Source: Candidatus Thalassarchaeaceae archaeon
GTDB taxonomy: Archaea; Thermoplasmatota; Poseidoniia; Poseidoniales; Thalassarchaeaceae
Direction: 5' to 3'
Length of the DNA stretch: 35,822 nt
NCBI GenBank assembly: GCA_030747395.1
Contig: JASLKT010000002.1
Span: 39,177-74,998 of the forward strand
In this document: one piece after another, positions 9,658 through 25,085 of the stretch
How positions within the stretch are numbered: position 1 is the stretch's first letter
Layout of the letters: each line of letters opens with the position of its first letter
The notes under the pieces: model-generated
What the model saw: the letters and a program-made list of their open reading frames with translations, nothing else
What the model was told of the DNA's origin: nothing
The model's database searches: none
Translations under genes and position numbers: made by a program

Positions 9658-12129
9658 CTACTCAATCTTACGAATTTGATTCGGTCCGTACATGAATACC
9701 AATATTGCAAATAATCCGAGGACTACAACTCCAACCCATAGGGTGGTATTATACTCATTTAGAACGGAGTTCGATTGCTGCTCTCCACTTGAATCGTCAG
9801 TAGATGTTGTCCTTTCCTGCACTATGACGTTTGTAGACCACAGGTTGTTTACTTCATTTGTTTCATCGAGTTCATCTGTCCAATCAATCTCAATTTCTAG
9901 AGTGACGTTTCCAGATTGAATATCCAAACGGTTCCATTCTTCGCAGGTCGCTGTTTCTAGACCACCAGGGGAAATCATTGCTATTTGTGGGGTCCCGATG
10001 GTTTGTCCATTGACTGAGCAACGCACGGTAACTGGTTGAGCGATGCTATTGCCGCTGTTTCGCACAAAAACTTCGATTGCAATGTCATTTCCTTCAATGA
10101 CTGAGGGTGAACCTGTATTCCTGTCCAGTATGCCAATGCTCTGAACCCAAACATCAGCGCGCTGAGTTACAATGACAGTAAGACTTTGATTTATTTCAGT
10201 CAACTCATCGGTTACAGAAATTGTGACTGTGTGGATTCCTATTGTGCTGGGACTAAACTCAATTTGACCAGCTGAGAAAACTGCCCATTCAGGTGTGATT
10301 TGAATATTCAACAAGTTGGATGCCGTGTCACGATCCCAATAAGCAAATGGAACTGAGAGGGATGAGTCGATTTCCATGGTCAACTCTACAGGAAGTGAAT
10401 CCATCTCTGGTGGGTCGTCAACAGCAGTGATGATGATTGCGATTTCATCGGTCCAAATATTCTGACGCTCATCCATAACCGAAATTGTGGCTGTTGTTTC
10501 ACCATGAGCATCTGAAACGGGTTGTAATCTGATTTGGCCATTGACGAAATTCGCTTCTAGGATAGATGCGTCGCCGCTCGACACTGTGACTACAAGGTCA
10601 TCATTGGAAGTAATATCATCCATGCAGGTGTATAGGAAGTCTAGCAAGCGTCCACCGCCATCTTCTTCGAACACCTGATCAGATTGGCCATCGCAAATGG
10701 GGTCACGATCCCATTCGATGAGGAAACCACCTTCAATGCCCATCTCGTCAACTTGGACAACAATATCTTCTGAACTCCCGTTGCTGGACCAATGGAATCG
10801 GGCCGATAGACCGACTTCAATCTCGCCGCCACCTGATGACAAGAGATGGCCAACAGTTGCCGTCAATTGGAACGTTGAGTTGCTTGAGGCGATATCATAT
10901 GACGCTACTTCCTCCCCATTCATCGCAACGCGCAACTTAGCGAACTCTGACACCATGGAGTGCACGTTCCCAATTATTTCTCCTTCAATTGTCAATATGG
11001 GGTCGTTGATATCGACCTTGAGACCCTCGATACACCCGTCGAGAAGGGTTGCATGGAATCTGACATATTGGGATGTTGTTTGAATTAATTCGCCTGATGA
11101 AATTGCACTTGTTGTAGACCAATCGTCACCATCTGCTGAACTCGAATAGTGCCAACTCGCATTTCCAATAACATCGGGATGGAATCGACCCCATGATTGT
11201 TCATGAGGCAGAGAAATGGAAGGTGTGACCCAGAAGCCTGTATTCTGGCCAGTAGTTTCCAAACCACAGGGAGATTGTGACAAATCCGTAAGTGTTCCTG
11301 TGGTTAAATTGATGTCAATGATTGGGAATTCATCAAAAGAGACTGAATGTGAGGCTTGAGCCAATTCAAAGGTCCCCCATGGCTGCATATGTTTGACAAT
11401 TAATCCTGCAGCATCCACTTGCAATTCTGTATCGTCAAATTCACCTACTGAGACGTAATCAAGCATGATTTTTAGATTAGAGAGTTCGCTCCAAGTCCAA
11501 GTTTTGATAGAGTCTAATGAATATACTTGAGCATTGTAATTCATGTGATTCAGTTCACCCATTGTATGAGCATATGTTTGGACGAGATGCTGTGTCCCTC
11601 CGGATTCGACAACGAATTGAACACTGTCCTGTTGCAAAGAATCTGGGACTCTAAATGCGACAGTCAATGACACGTTCGTGATTTCGTAATTCGAACCCTC
11701 ACTCAAATCAAATCCTGATAACTCAATGATGGGCCCTTTCGTCCAAGAAAACCCACCATCTGAATCTCCATCGGAGTCATTGTCGCAAACCGGATCAGAT
11801 ACTGGTTTGAAACAGTCAGGGGTGCCGATTGAGAGGTTGTCTCCAGACGGTGAAATTGTGGCCCAAGATGTGACTTCGTCGTAATTTGCAGGTCGATTAT
11901 GTGTGAACGATAATCGGCCATCCGCTATCATCGAACCGGAGTGTACTGCTGGCTCTTCACTGTACGCCTTGTTGGTGGAAAGGGACCATTCGGAGGCGTC
12001 AGCAAACGTCCCCGCAGGTAGCAAGTCAACCGTTTCAGAACGGATGACTGTGTCCCCCTCAACGTTGACGGGGATTATCGAAAATATGAGGAGAAGGACC
12101 AGCAGAACCGAGAGATTGCGGGTGTGCAT
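9658..12129 (-). CDS. Large secreted, C-terminally anchored protein with Ig/cadherin-like and CARDB domains
   Basis: The 823 residues begin with a signal peptide (MHTRNLSVLLVLLLIFSIIPVNVEG) and end with a single membrane helix (LWVGVVVLGLFAILVF) and a short basic tail, so the bulk should face outside. The middle is beta-rich with scattered Cys pairs and Asp-rich stretches ('DNDSDGDSDGG'). Residues ~540-660 look like two cadherin/Ig-type domains ('ITAVDDPPEMDSLPVELTM'), and ~660-780 match the CARDB pattern ('VFVRNSGNSIAQPVTVRC', 'DETNEVNNLW'). The tail has the Ser/Thr-rich spacer, helix and basic end that archaeosortase substrates share, but no PGF motif. Likely a surface adhesin or binding protein; no catalytic motif is seen. 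ATG 12129 is chosen because it opens the signal peptide. Confidence 0.8.
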   Translation of the reverse strand: MHTRNLSVLLVLLLIFSIIPVNVEGDTVIRSETVDLLPAGTFADASEWSLSTNKAYSEEPAVHSGSMIADGRLSFTHNRPANYDEVTSWATISPSGDNLSIGTPDCFKPVSDPVCDNDSDGDSDGGFSWTKGPIIELSGFDLSEGSNYEITNVSLTVAFRVPDSLQQDSVQFVVESGGTQHLVQTYAHTMGELNHMNYNAQVYSLDSIKTWTWSELSNLKIMLDYVSVGEFDDTELQVDAAGLIVKHMQPWGTFELAQASHSVSFDEFPIIDINLTTGTLTDLSQSPCGLETTGQNTGFWVTPSISLPHEQSWGRFHPDVIGNASWHYSSSADGDDWSTTSAISSGELIQTTSQYVRFHATLLDGCIEGLKVDINDPILTIEGEIIGNVHSMVSEFAKLRVAMNGEEVASYDIASSNSTFQLTATVGHLLSSGGGEIEVGLSARFHWSSNGSSEDIVVQVDEMGIEGGFLIEWDRDPICDGQSDQVFEEDGGGRLLDFLYTCMDDITSNDDLVVTVSSGDASILEANFVNGQIRLQPVSDAHGETTATISVMDERQNIWTDEIAIIITAVDDPPEMDSLPVELTMEIDSSLSVPFAYWDRDTASNLLNIQITPEWAVFSAGQIEFSPSTIGIHTVTISVTDELTEINQSLTVIVTQRADVWVQSIGILDRNTGSPSVIEGNDIAIEVFVRNSGNSIAQPVTVRCSVNGQTIGTPQIAMISPGGLETATCEEWNRLDIQSGNVTLEIEIDWTDELDETNEVNNLWSTNVIVQERTTSTDDSSGEQQSNSVLNEYNTTLWVGVVVLGLFAILVFMYGPNQIRKIE

Positions 12130-12248: not shown

Positions 12249-12321
12249 GGCTGCGGTGGTCTAGTGGTTAGGACGGTAGATTGTGGCTCTGCCACCCCGG
12301 GTTCAACTCCCGGTCGCGGCC
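12249..12321 (+). tRNA. tRNA-His, anticodon GTG
   Basis: A full cloverleaf can be drawn: acceptor GCTGCGG/TCGCGGC, D stem GTCT/GGAC with AGTGGTTA loop, anticodon stem GTAGA/TCTGC with loop TTGTGGC (anticodon GTG), variable CACC, T stem CCGGG/CCCGG with loop TTCAACT, discriminator C73 (12321). The base before the acceptor is G (12249) and can pair with C73, the G-1 identity element of tRNA-His, so it appears to be genome-encoded. CCA is not encoded and there is no intron. TTGAAATACC about 30 bases upstream is a possible promoter element. Confidence 0.95.
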
Positions 12322-12324
12322 CCT

Positions 12325-12948
12325 TTACTCAATTCCAAGCTCTTGCTGAGGGATTTCATGCCCCATTCGGGTTGCCTTGGTTTCCAAATATCCGCGATTC
12401 TCTTCATTGACTCCTACAATCAATGGCATCCGTTCGATGACGGTGATTCCCAAATCCTGTAATGCAATTACTTTGTCAGGGTTGTTTGTGAGAAGGCTGA
12501 CATCAGAAATTCCAACCGCCCGTAGCATCTCGGCCGCAATTCGATAATCGCGGGCATCTGCAGGATGGCCGAGCATCAGGTTTGCATCGAGTGTGTCTGC
12601 GCCTTGATCTTGCAAATTGTAGGCCTGAATTTTCGCGTGCAACCCGATTCCTCTGCCTTCTTGTCGCAAATACAGTAGGCAACCCCAACCATGTAACTGA
12701 ATGGCCTGAAGGGCAGCGTCAAGTTGAGGTCCACAATCACATCTTGCAGAACTAAATGCATCACCAGTTAGGCATTCGGAGTGCATTCGAACAAGAACGG
12801 GGTCGGGTCCATCCATATCGCCCAATGTCAGAGCAACGTGATCAAATCCGGTTTCAGCGTCGTGAAATACGCGTATTCGAAATTCTCCATGGGCAGTGGG
12901 CAAACGAGCGTCGGCGGGGACTTCGCCTTTTTCGACAATGGGTGTCAT
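12325..12948 (-). CDS. ribA: GTP cyclohydrolase II
   Basis: Opens the GTP imidazole ring to give the diaminopyrimidine precursor of riboflavin. The 207-residue protein has the zinc site Cys59, Cys70 and Cys72 within 'HSECLTGDAFSSARCDCGPQ', the LRQEGRGIGL signature (about 94-103) and the 'TNNPDK' motif near residue 155. It is a stand-alone RibA, without a fused RibB domain. This is the bacterial/plant-type enzyme; many archaea instead use GTP cyclohydrolase III (ArfA), so acquisition by transfer in the lineage is likely. The ATG overlaps the stop of the TusA-like gene by 4 bases, and the stop lies 3 bases beyond the oppositely oriented tRNA-His. Confidence 0.93.
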   Translation of the reverse strand: MTPIVEKGEVPADARLPTAHGEFRIRVFHDAETGFDHVALTLGDMDGPDPVLVRMHSECLTGDAFSSARCDCGPQLDAALQAIQLHGWGCLLYLRQEGRGIGLHAKIQAYNLQDQGADTLDANLMLGHPADARDYRIAAEMLRAVGISDVSLLTNNPDKVIALQDLGITVIERMPLIVGVNEENRGYLETKATRMGHEIPQQELGIE

Positions 12949-13190
12949 TCGTTTGCCTCCTTTCGTATACGGTAATGATACTCTCCCGCCTCTTCCTCTA
13001 CACCCAGAAGTGAGTCGCCACTTCTATTCAATAGTGCTGGAATGTCCATTTTGGTTTCTGGATCATCTGCCATCACCAAAACAATTTCACCAGGGGACAT
13101 TGTTGCCAATATGCGTTTTGTTTCATGAACTGGTACTGGGCAGTGGAAACCAAGCACGTCTAGAGTGACGTCGGCGAGTTCGAGTGCCAT
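12945..13190 (-). CDS. TusA-like sulfur-carrier protein
   Basis: A small TusA/SirA/YeeD-type protein of 81 residues from ATG 13190 (the ORF track extends to a TTG at 13220). The signature LDVLGFHCPVPVHETKRIL contains the conserved Cys-Pro-x-Pro that carries persulfide sulfur in TusA, followed by 'LVMADDPETKMDIPALLNRSG', matching the usual DDP.....I......G pattern. Family members pass sulfur for tRNA thiolation, molybdenum cofactor or other sulfur chemistry; the acceptor here cannot be told. It overlaps ribA by 4 bases (ATGA), so the two are translationally coupled, and it diverges from the archaeosortase-like gene. Confidence 0.85.
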   Translation of the reverse strand: MALELADVTLDVLGFHCPVPVHETKRILATMSPGEIVLVMADDPETKMDIPALLNRSGDSLLGVEEEAGEYHYRIRKEANE

Positions 13191-13276
13191 GGTCTGAGGC
13201 GGGTGCTCTCCTTTCTTCAATGCGACGGGGGTTTTGATGAGAGGGATTGAAGCGGGAACAGGTGCTGGGGAGGGTT

Positions 13277-14197
13277 GTGCGAGCGAATCAGAAGAGTCGT
13301 CCTAAAGACGACTTATCTTGGTCTGAAGTTGGAGAAATGGCCTATGGATATCTCCGCATTCCACTGGCATTGGTGTTTGTCGAAATTATCTATTGGTGGG
13401 CCACAGAACCCGATGCAAGTTTGGAACCATTGCAGGTTGTCTTGGCATGGCTATGGTCGGGGACCTCAAATCTGCTCTGGCCAGGTTCTACCGAATTGGT
13501 TTTCCATGGGCCATCTCAATCTTGGACTGGTGTGAATCTTATCGGCTCTGGGTTCGATTATGGCGAAGTACCATTGTATATTGATGCAGAATGTGCAGGT
13601 GTTCACGAAATCATGTTCCTCGGTGTTTTGATGTTATTGACGCCTGGTGTTGAACGAGGAATTCGTAACCGCTCATTGATCGGGATGGTTATCATTGTCC
13701 AATTCATCAATTTCCTTCGATTAATCGCACTATATCCAATCGGGATGGAATACGGTGAAGCGAAAATGAATGAGATGCATGAATTCATTTTCCGACAGGG
13801 GTTCCTGATTTTGTTAGTATTGTTCTGGATTGTTTGGTATATTCAATTGGAGCGAAATGGCGTCCGTGACAAAAAAGCCAAGCCGGCTTTGTCCGACCTT
13901 CCAAAAAAAGAGCAAATCAAGATGCGGGATACACTTCCAACCGCATCTGTAGTGACACTAATCTTCTGTGCAATCATCGCAATTTGGGCGACTCATGAAG
14001 TGACTATGAATGATGATAACCTTCAGTTCAAAGCAACCGCTGAAGAATGTGAAGGCTCTGAGTGCCAAAACGATGAAGCGAAGATTTGGTCGAATGTATG
14101 GGACCGATCTGTGCGTTTGTGGTTATTTTCGGGACTTCTTTCCGCCTTTGCGATTGTCAAAGTAGAACCGCTTGGAATCGGGGAGAGTGAGGAATAG
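13277..14197 (+). CDS. Archaeosortase/exosortase-family membrane protease-like protein
   Basis: About 306 residues, multi-pass membrane. The exosortase/archaeosortase triad is readable in order: Cys in 'DAECAGVHEIMFLGVL' (C116 in the long ORF numbering), Arg in 'INFLRLIALYP' (R158) and His in 'NEMHEFIFRQG' (H178), with the expected membrane segments between them. Family members cleave C-terminal sorting tails and transfer surface proteins to an anchor or lipid. I prefer GTG 13277, behind GGGGAGGG; TTG 13247 is the longer alternative. The C-terminal third has two extra membrane helices and a Cys pair (ECEGSEC) in the loop, not part of the core family. No PGF-type substrate is seen nearby. Its stop abuts that of the DEAD helicase. 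Confidence 0.8.
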   Translation: MRANQKSRPKDDLSWSEVGEMAYGYLRIPLALVFVEIIYWWATEPDASLEPLQVVLAWLWSGTSNLLWPGSTELVFHGPSQSWTGVNLIGSGFDYGEVPLYIDAECAGVHEIMFLGVLMLLTPGVERGIRNRSLIGMVIIVQFINFLRLIALYPIGMEYGEAKMNEMHEFIFRQGFLILLVLFWIVWYIQLERNGVRDKKAKPALSDLPKKEQIKMRDTLPTASVVTLIFCAIIAIWATHEVTMNDDNLQFKATAEECEGSECQNDEAKIWSNVWDRSVRLWLFSGLLSAFAIVKVEPLGIGESEE

Positions 14198-15625
14198 TCA
14201 ATTTGCGATTTGCACATTGACTTCTGACCCGTTCATCGATTTCCCTTTGAGTGCATCGAGTGTGTGTTGAGCCTTCTCTCTGTGAATCTCTACAACAGCA
14301 ATTGTACCGTCAGTTTGAATTTGCCCGATGGCTAAATCTGGAAGCCGTGCTTGTTCTGAAACAAAATTGTGAATGGCAAGTTTGGATGTTTCGCTTGTGG
14401 AAAGCCGAATCGGCACCATTCCAAACACATCTGCACTTTCGCCCCAATCCATTTGTTTTCGGACGGGGTCACGGTCCACTCCTTCAGGGAGTTCAGGTGC
14501 TTCGACTTCTCTAACTACCATGTTCCATGTCGAGATGATTTTGGTCATGTTAGGGGCGTCTTCACCGGAGACAAACGACCAGGCTTCACCCTTGCGTCCC
14601 ATTCGACCAGTTCGGCCAATCCGGTGTACGTATGACTCAGAATCCGCTGGGATGTCATAATTGACAACCATGGTGACACCATCGACATCTAATCCGCGAG
14701 CAGCTACGTCTGTCGCGACGACGACTCGTGTTTTTCCATCGCGGAAATCAGAAATTATTCTTTCTCGCTTGTTTTGTGCCATGTCGCCATGTAATCCGAT
14801 CGCGGAAAACTTGTGGCGGTCCAACCGCTCGACAAGGAGGTCGACCATCCGTTTGGTATTGGAGAAAATGATAACTTGATCTTCCTTCGTGAGGCGAATC
14901 ATGAGTCGTCCCAGAACCCACAATTTATTGGCACGGCCAATTCGAACCATGAATTGGTCTATTTCAGGAACTTCAACGTCCAAGTCATCGCTCATGACGT
15001 GTTCTGCATCGGTAATGAATTCATTTGCGGCTTCAAGAATTTCTTGAGGGAATGTGGCGGAAAAGAGCAGGGTTTGCTGCCTATTTTCCAAACGTTCAAG
15101 GCACCAAAGAATATCTGGGAAGAACCCCATATCTAGCATTCGATCTGCTTCATCGAGAGCGAAGTGGGTAATGTTCTCCAAATTGATATGGCCTCTTTTG
15201 CTCATGTCGATGACGCGTCCAGGTGTGCCAACGATGATATCGCACCCGCTGTCTAGCACCTTGGCCTGCTTATCGATATCAGTTCCACCGTAAACAGTGA
15301 CAAATTTGAGGCCCCTTCCACCTTGTAACCATTGCATTTCCTCGCTGACCTGAGTCGCCAATTCTCTCGTAGGGCAGAGGACCAATGCTTGGGTTTGCCC
15401 GGTTGCTTGACAATTTTCAATAATCGGAATGCCGAATGCAACTGTTTTCCCTGATCCGGTTCGGGCTTGACCCACAATGTCCTTTCCCGAACGAGCCAAG
15501 GGAATGGCTTCGGCTTGAATCGGCGTGGCTAATTCCCAACCTTTTGCAGAAATAGCGTCGGCTATTTCCGGTGCTAGATCCCAATCCGAAAAACGGACTG
15601 TCGAAAGTGCATTGGTGCTAGACAT
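14198..15625 (-). CDS. DEAD-box RNA helicase (DbpA/CsdA-like)
   Basis: ATP-dependent RNA helicase of 475 residues. Motifs in order are the Q motif (GWELATPIQAEAIP, ~30-43), I ARTGSGKT (~54-61), Ia PTRELA, Ib TPGRV, II DEAD (~158), III SAT (~190), IV 'VIIFSNTK', V 'ATDVAARGLDV' and VI HRIGRTGR (~338-345). The last ~75 residues ('MVPIRLSTSETSKLAIHNFV') resemble the DbpA-type RNA-binding domain, which in bacteria targets 23S rRNA. A role in ribosome assembly or mRNA unwinding in cold seawater is likely but inferred. It lies 14 bases after the 71-aa gene and probably shares its transcript. Confidence 0.95.
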   Translation of the reverse strand: MSSTNALSTVRFSDWDLAPEIADAISAKGWELATPIQAEAIPLARSGKDIVGQARTGSGKTVAFGIPIIENCQATGQTQALVLCPTRELATQVSEEMQWLQGGRGLKFVTVYGGTDIDKQAKVLDSGCDIIVGTPGRVIDMSKRGHINLENITHFALDEADRMLDMGFFPDILWCLERLENRQQTLLFSATFPQEILEAANEFITDAEHVMSDDLDVEVPEIDQFMVRIGRANKLWVLGRLMIRLTKEDQVIIFSNTKRMVDLLVERLDRHKFSAIGLHGDMAQNKRERIISDFRDGKTRVVVATDVAARGLDVDGVTMVVNYDIPADSESYVHRIGRTGRMGRKGEAWSFVSGEDAPNMTKIISTWNMVVREVEAPELPEGVDRDPVRKQMDWGESADVFGMVPIRLSTSETSKLAIHNFVSEQARLPDLAIGQIQTDGTIAVVEIHREKAQHTLDALKGKSMNGSEVNVQIAN

Positions 15626-24155: not shown

Positions 24156-24165
24156 GATATGTAAA
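24156..24165 (+). promoter_or_regulatory. Candidate TATA box (GATATGTAAA) of the thioredoxin-like gene
   Basis: GATATGTAAA lies 27-36 bases before the ATG at 24192, where a TATA box would be for a leaderless transcript. This is the main reason to prefer ATG 24192 over ATG 24165, which would fall inside the box. Confidence 0.45.
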
Positions 24166-24191
24166 TGAGACCCGGCTCAAACGCTTGGAAC

Positions 24192-25085
24192 ATGCAGAAG
24201 GGGGTGGCTGTTGCTCTAATCACGCTCATTCTACTACCATTGGTGAGCGCCGATACAGGTTCCCCTGATGAATCAAGAGATGCTGTAGGGGGTCATGCCA
24301 TCTTATTGGAACATTATACAGCAACTTGGTGCGATAGTTGTGCCACTGTCGATCCGTGGATTTCTGAATTTTCAGATAGTCACTCTAGTCGAATGGTTCG
24401 CATTGCCCTACACCCGGATGATCACGACCCTTTTGGAAGCCCCCTTACCACGAAACGGGTGGCACTCAAACAGACTGACCATTCGCTATCATTGCCAACA
24501 TTTTGGTTTGATGGTCAAGGCGAATTGGAGGGGGTTGTGAGTGAATCACTACTTGAAAACCAATTGCGTTCAGCAGAATCCAATCGGGCGCATTGGATTG
24601 GGATGCAAGTTTCATGGGACACTTGGTACAGACAACCTCAGGGTGATGTGCAGAAGATCAGTGTACAAGTTGATGATTTACCTGAAAATGCGGAAATCAC
24701 AGTCTTCAGATTACAGACGCTAATGATGAATGGTGAAATCGCGAATAATGGCATCGATGTTCATCATGATGTGGCTACACAGATGATTACATTCTCACCT
24801 AATGGCACGGTCCTAGATTCCTTTGAGGGCGAGCATGGTTGGATTTTATCCAGTGATAACGCACTCAGTGAAGGTGACACATCCGTGTTCGCTCTGGAAA
24901 CAACGGGGGAAATAAACAGTTTTGTGACGGTTGTCGAAGTAAATGGCACTGTTCGCGGCGTAATCGGTATCTCAAATGATGATATGCCCCGAAAAGCGGA
25001 AAATTTCGCGAATTTTTCACTATTATTGTTACTAGGTGCGCTAGTGTGTTCAGGCGTAATCTCGCGCCAGGACAAGTTCCATTGA
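24192..25085 (+). CDS. Secreted, membrane-anchored thioredoxin-like protein
   Basis: About 297 residues from ATG 24192, which begins a clean signal peptide (MQKGVAVALITLILLPLVSA). The first ~110 mature residues are a thioredoxin-fold domain: 'LLEHYTATWCDSCATVDPW' has the redox motif C47-x-x-C50 (WCDSC), with the cis-Pro site in 'LSLPTFWFDGQG'. The rest is beta-rich ('KISVQVDDLPENAEITVF', 'SFVTVVEVNGTVRGVIGI'), without known family, and a membrane helix (FSLLLLLGALVCSGVI) closes it with a short basic tail. It should face outside the cell as an oxidoreductase or disulfide-linked binding protein. The CDSC motif differs from ordinary thioredoxin (CGPC). The VKOR and second thioredoxin-like genes follow within 2 kb. 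Confidence 0.82.
   Translation: MQKGVAVALITLILLPLVSADTGSPDESRDAVGGHAILLEHYTATWCDSCATVDPWISEFSDSHSSRMVRIALHPDDHDPFGSPLTTKRVALKQTDHSLSLPTFWFDGQGELEGVVSESLLENQLRSAESNRAHWIGMQVSWDTWYRQPQGDVQKISVQVDDLPENAEITVFRLQTLMMNGEIANNGIDVHHDVATQMITFSPNGTVLDSFEGEHGWILSSDNALSEGDTSVFALETTGEINSFVTVVEVNGTVRGVIGISNDDMPRKAENFANFSLLLLLGALVCSGVISRQDKFH

Follow-up and report, generated by a model that had tools for sequence, protein, structure and literature searches.

Marine Group II archaea rank among the most abundant organisms of the plankton. They have so far escaped cultivation and are believed to eat proteins and lipids by way of surface-bound enzymes. The literature that we found, with subscription journals outside its scope, does not describe how the surface proteins of these organisms are anchored, and within the same scope no paper mentions archaeosortase or exosortase together with Poseidoniales, or archaeosortase together with Marine Group II. 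The window analysed here (the whole stretch of 35,822 nucleotides) encodes a membrane protein that an earlier note, made from the sequence alone, had described as archaeosortase/exosortase-like, with no PGF-type substrate in sight. The locus raises the questions of whether this protein, for which we use the working label Art2, belongs to that family, and on what it would act.

The Art2 open reading frame and its conserved residues

The Art2 frame (13277-14197, plus strand) is open for 306 aa from GTG 13277, or for 316 aa if TTG 13247 is used. The GTG is the likelier start, since its position is matched in the plus-strand loci of the same genus, with the exception of the most diverged one (G073). 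The gene and its main features are:

13277..14197, plus strand: Art2, exosortase/archaeosortase-family membrane protein (TIGR04178), with orthologues order-wide
13592..13594, plus strand: codon of C106, presumed catalytic Cys, in ECAGVHE; aligned with Cys239 of the archaeosortase A (ArtA) encoded in the same genome
13718..13720, plus strand: codon of R148, presumed catalytic Arg, in NFLRL; aligned with ArtA R281
13778..13780, plus strand: codon of H168, presumed catalytic His, in MHEF; aligned with ArtA H308
13919..14194, plus strand: C-terminal extension beyond the core model (hydropathy), present in all orthologues except those of genus g20
14048..14065, plus strand: Cys pair C258/C263 in an extracytoplasmic loop, presumed disulfide, kept in every orthologue with the extension

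The Cys, Arg and His highlighted in the earlier note as C116, R158 and H178, in the numbering of the longer frame, are C106, R148 and H168 when counted from the GTG, and hydropathy bears out their membrane context. In an alignment of 21 divergent orthologues (identity about 26-58%) all three are invariant, so the conservation on which that identification depended is present, and the same is observed for G108, H110, N145, L149 and G175.

Relationship to known archaeosortases

Art2 scores 34.7 bits against TIGR04178, the exosortase/archaeosortase signature (cut-off 23), and seven orthologues scanned singly score 23.0-40.9 bits, the lowest value coinciding with the cut-off. Aligning the Art2 profile with that of archaeosortase A by hhalign brings C, R and H into register, with an E-value of 4e-4 and a modest probability of 34%. 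The proposed archaeosortase/exosortase identity is thus backed by the signature match, the conserved residues and the profile alignment, and the HMM search by which it was to be checked supports the superfamily and none of its named subfamilies. Among the NCBIfam models used, the highest subfamily scores of Art2 (XrtG 25.0, pacearchaeosortase 24.3, XrtM 23.3 and ArtC 22.1 bits) stay far short of the respective cut-offs, and Art2 and its orthologues together reach about 22-31 bits against XrtG, archaeosortase B, archaeosortase C and pacearchaeosortase, whose curated cut-offs are 80-150. On the archaeosortase A model TIGR04125 (cut-off 75) the Art2 of the window has no match at E<=1, and its orthologues, where listed, remain at or below 21 bits (21.3 at most). 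The PF09721 (Exosortase_EpsH) match covers the same superfamily core region, residues 88-187, and at 15.5 bits does not reach the gathering score (25.7). A search for relatives of solved structure found none, and an AlphaFold model of Art2 built from six sequences (pLDDT 42.6) is too poor for a fold test.

Art2 shares with archaeosortase A (ArtA, TIGR04125; Haloferax volcanii HVO_0915) the superfamily signature and the Cys and Arg motifs. The H. volcanii enzyme acts on a PGF tripartite signal and uses Cys173, Arg214 and Arg253 (PMC9263693), as against Cys, Arg and His in Art2. In the ArtA of Poseidoniales the His is present too, and both enzymes coexist in the same genomes. Art2 differs from ArtA in that its core begins earlier in the chain and that a C-terminal extension comprising two helices and a Cys pair is added. 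Nor is Art2 linked to PGF tails: the PGF-CTERM co-occurrence that characterizes archaeosortase A does not extend to Art2, as PGF tails are also found in genera devoid of it. The weak best subfamily matches, XrtG (TIGR03110), pacearchaeosortase (NF033505), archaeosortase B (TIGR04144) and archaeosortase C (TIGR03762), have the same core and, unlike Art2, no Cys-pair extension in the matched region. Judged from these comparisons, Art2 is a genuine member of the archaeosortase family, predicted to be an enzyme and with its triad intact. It stands beside archaeosortase A as the second of its kind and belongs to no named subfamily in the copy of NCBIfam used.

Archaeosortase A and PGF-like tails in the same genomes

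A TIGR04178 profile search of the genome that carries the window yields two members, both on contig C73, namely Art2 and a gene at C73:3306-3596 (L120), which lies about 36 kb ahead of the window and about 49 kb from Art2. The L120 protein scores 92.4 bits against TIGR04125 (cut-off 75) and is a true archaeosortase A. The spacing of about 49 kb between the two genes recurs in G015, and in G118 it is about 95 kb. All but one of the 20 sampled genomes, Art2-less genera included, have matches of this stronger TIGR04178 class (51-63 bits, archaeosortase A type), and the one genome lacking them (G053) is 78% complete. PGF-CTERM-like tails are equally widespread (19/20 genomes, again including Art2-less genera, with one MAG of genus g1 as the exception). 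An example from the same genome is found at G000:C90 (...GLLPGFLAPLGLIALGAGALVRRE); its tail (...EGLLPGFLAPLGLIALGAGALVRRE) scores 10.8 bits, below the PGF model cut-off of 24.5, and reads as PGF followed by a helix and RRE. We judged such tails by reading them, because the PGF model also scores weakly in unrelated control genomes; as read, the Poseidoniales tails appear broader than the PGF-CTERM model, and most score below its cut-off. The absence of a PGF-type substrate therefore applies to the window and not to the genome: the contig of Art2 also encodes a true archaeosortase A, and there are PGF-like tails elsewhere. Art2 is thus a second archaeosortase. The simplest assignment of PGF-type sorting is to archaeosortase A, which very probably serves the PGF-type tails.

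Distribution, gene order and loss

Orthologues of Art2 are found in 32 of the 118 genomes of its own family, Thalassarchaeaceae, where they are confined to 4 of the 11 sampled genera (g1, g2, g4 and g7), and in 92 of the 99 genomes sampled from the sister family Poseidoniaceae (the 99 being inferred from the genome numbering, G118-G216). The named relatives are Candidatus Poseidoniales, Candidatus Thalassarchaeaceae and Marine Group II MED-G33. A weaker homologue is present in yet another family of the class. The genes around Art2, together with a second secreted protein of the window, are:

9658..12129, minus strand: CARDB-domain secreted protein (PF07705; synteny) with a C-terminal membrane helix and a conserved cytoplasmic end, GPxxI[RK]+xE
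12250-12323: tRNA-His gene, between the CARDB gene and ribA
12325..12948, minus strand: GTP cyclohydrolase II (RibA), conserved neighbour (PF00925/PRK00393; synteny)
12945..13220, minus strand: TusA-like sulfurtransferase, divergent neighbour (PF01206, 74 bits)
14198..15625, minus strand: DEAD-box RNA helicase, convergent conserved neighbour (PF00270, DbpA domain; synteny)
24165..25085, plus strand: secreted thioredoxin-like protein with a C-terminal helix, 'ENFANFS...'

The true start of the CARDB gene is taken as ATG 12129, because its open frame extends back into the tRNA-His gene. The order CARDB - RibA - (TusA) - [Art2] - DEAD helicase - HEAT protein is common to both families, and in five of the Art2-less genera the neighbours are still collinear, minus Art2. 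The gap between the DEAD helicase and RibA genes is there about 306-560 bp (measured at G009:C35, G008:C2, G011:C10, G025:C12, G019:C13, G014:C124, G021:C18, G010:C37 and G022:C6), against 1316 bp in the Art2-containing control G007. In genera g5 and g6, also Art2-less, the locus is rearranged or split across contigs.

The seven genera without Art2 group together as a single clade in a tree of archaeosortase A (support 98/98), and one loss therefore explains the pattern: Art2 was probably cleanly lost once, in a clade that retained archaeosortase A. As there is only one such clade, phylogenetic profiling has about one independent event to draw on. Poseidoniales thus have archaeosortase A with PGF-like tails and a second, unnamed archaeosortase cleanly lost in one clade, and this clade can serve as a natural knock-out in the search for the substrates of that enzyme.

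The C-terminal extension and the proposed function

The earlier note had also placed an extra C-terminal third with a Cys pair outside the core family, and this part indeed lies beyond the core model and is conserved. By hydropathy it comprises two predicted membrane helices (residues ~220-238 and ~278-296) with an extracytoplasmic loop between them and an acidic cytoplasmic end. Both C258 and C263 are invariant in the 20 aligned orthologues that have the extension, the remaining one being from genus g20. In this genus of the sister family (G164, G190, G203; L146, L137 of G190) Art2 has 229-230 aa and no extension, while the triad is kept, which provides a natural test of the role of the extension. 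Because the homologue in the further family of the class covers the core only, the extension is known only within the order. Hydropathy with positive-inside loops suggests that C106, H168 and the Cys pair are all on the outer side of the membrane.

The activity of Art2 is argued here from residue conservation and from what is known of the family, by analogy with which it would cut and re-anchor tails. A C-terminal helix ending in basic residues would keep a secreted precursor in the membrane; from the outer face of the membrane, C106 would attack the peptide bond beside the helix, assisted by R148 and H168, and the cut protein would be released or handed to an anchor such as a lipid. The clients of Art2 would most likely be a small number of dedicated proteins, perhaps a single one, or else an as yet unrecognised tail. 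The extension, with its two helices and extracellular Cys pair, probably serves to gate or position the substrate. We consider it probable that Art2 is a catalytically intact archaeosortase, as predicted from sequence, which is order-wide and ancestral to Poseidoniales and coexists with archaeosortase A without being its orthologue; the faster evolution of Art2 relative to archaeosortase A was counted against this explanation. More tentatively, and in our estimate falling somewhat short of an even chance, Art2 may represent an unnamed class of archaeosortase ancestral to Poseidoniales, with a private substrate or tail and a disulfide-bearing extension for its recognition, operating in parallel to archaeosortase A and PGF, and lost once in a streamlined Thalassarchaeaceae clade.

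Search for substrates and alternative explanations

The survey of C-terminal tails proposed in the earlier note was carried out over 1.7 Mb, comprising about 1.2 Mb of G118, a complete genome of the sister family, and 0.5 Mb of the genus of the window. It yielded tails of the PGF type and its variants LPAAS, LLPALS, TPAIS and LLPSF, and contained no Art2-specific tail or second recurrent motif, so that the expected pre-helix motif co-occurring with Art2 did not emerge. An automatic motif count was weakly above the shuffled expectation (17 vs 9.7; 5 vs 2.9) and serves as a descriptive list only. Of 12 candidate tails assembled, the first 5 were profiled and the other 7 (G118) left out. An 'LPAxS' tail, modelled from G118, G073 and G001 and searched for, was rejected as specific to Art2, given that LPAPS tails are also found in Art2-less genera. 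A link to the archaellum was likewise discarded, the FlaD/E gene being present in 0 of 34 genomes, from genera with and without Art2 alike.

It is possible, if on the doubtful side, that Art2 acts on some of the PGF-like tails of archaeosortase A, or on a variant of them (e.g. LPAxS, LLPSF), and is partly redundant with it. The wide variation of these tails in genomes with Art2, the alternation of orthologous proteins between PGF and LPA forms, the lack of a second recurrent motif in the 1.7 Mb survey and the tolerance of a whole clade to the loss of Art2 all agree with this possibility. However, genera without Art2 still have LPAPS, LPGF and TPGF tails, so that none of these variants depends on it, and its order-wide retention speaks against simple redundancy. 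Seemingly orthologous surface proteins were also observed to swap the pre-helix motif among PGF, PSF, LPF, LPAA, LPAPS and FNPLS (L213, L059, L082; L222, L174; L189 vs L240/L242/L251).

Less likely, Art2 could be a membrane enzyme of the same fold with a job other than C-terminal sorting, as might be suggested by the lack of a substrate among the tails surveyed and of a named subfamily, by the unusual extension with its Cys pair, and by a neighbourhood of housekeeping genes, for riboflavin synthesis, TusA and an RNA helicase. On the other hand, the triad is fully conserved, and to our knowledge the exosortase/archaeosortase superfamily members characterised so far all act on C-terminal tails.

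The two tails quoted in the earlier note, 'LNEYNTT' before the helix of the CARDB protein and 'ENFANFS' before that of the 24165-25085 protein, both exist, but neither is a good candidate as an Art2 substrate, because both protein families persist in the seven genera without Art2. For the 24165-25085 protein, moreover, matches beyond its own genus cover the domain and not the tail. The CARDB protein would seem an attractive dedicated substrate, since it is secreted, has a C-terminal helix with basic residues and is encoded near-adjacent to Art2 in most genomes examined. Nevertheless, we regard this as quite unlikely: genera without Art2 retain the gene, most of them together with its tail (in g3, g9, g10 and g11 the alignment reaches residue 821 of 823), the two genes lie apart in genus g7, and what is conserved in the tail is its cytoplasmic end (GPNQIRKIE / APAKIKKIE) rather than a pre-helix motif. 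The tail looks like a plain membrane anchor, and its conserved end suggests a partner bound inside the cell; this end, which takes the form GPGKIRRES as well, is conserved order-wide.

Finally, that Art2 is an unrelated membrane protein with Cys, Arg and His in place by chance would fit the Pfam Exosortase_EpsH score below gathering, but is hardly credible in view of the TIGR04178 score above the cut-off, the invariance of these residues in 21 orthologues and their register with archaeosortase A.

Tri-glutamate C-termini

Nearly all Art2 orthologues end in EE or EEE. Among ORFs of at least 200 aa, a C-terminal EEE immediately before the stop is strongly over-represented in G118 (24 of 722-724, vs 0.2-0.35 expected; L044-L063, L164-L203) and in the genus of the window (8 of 289, vs about 0.1 expected; the window, L094, L095, L106, L152, L204-L223), and EEE is the top C-terminal tripeptide. 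Overlap with Shine-Dalgarno sequences was rejected as the cause, because GAA and GAG codons are mixed and there is no preference for co-directional next genes.
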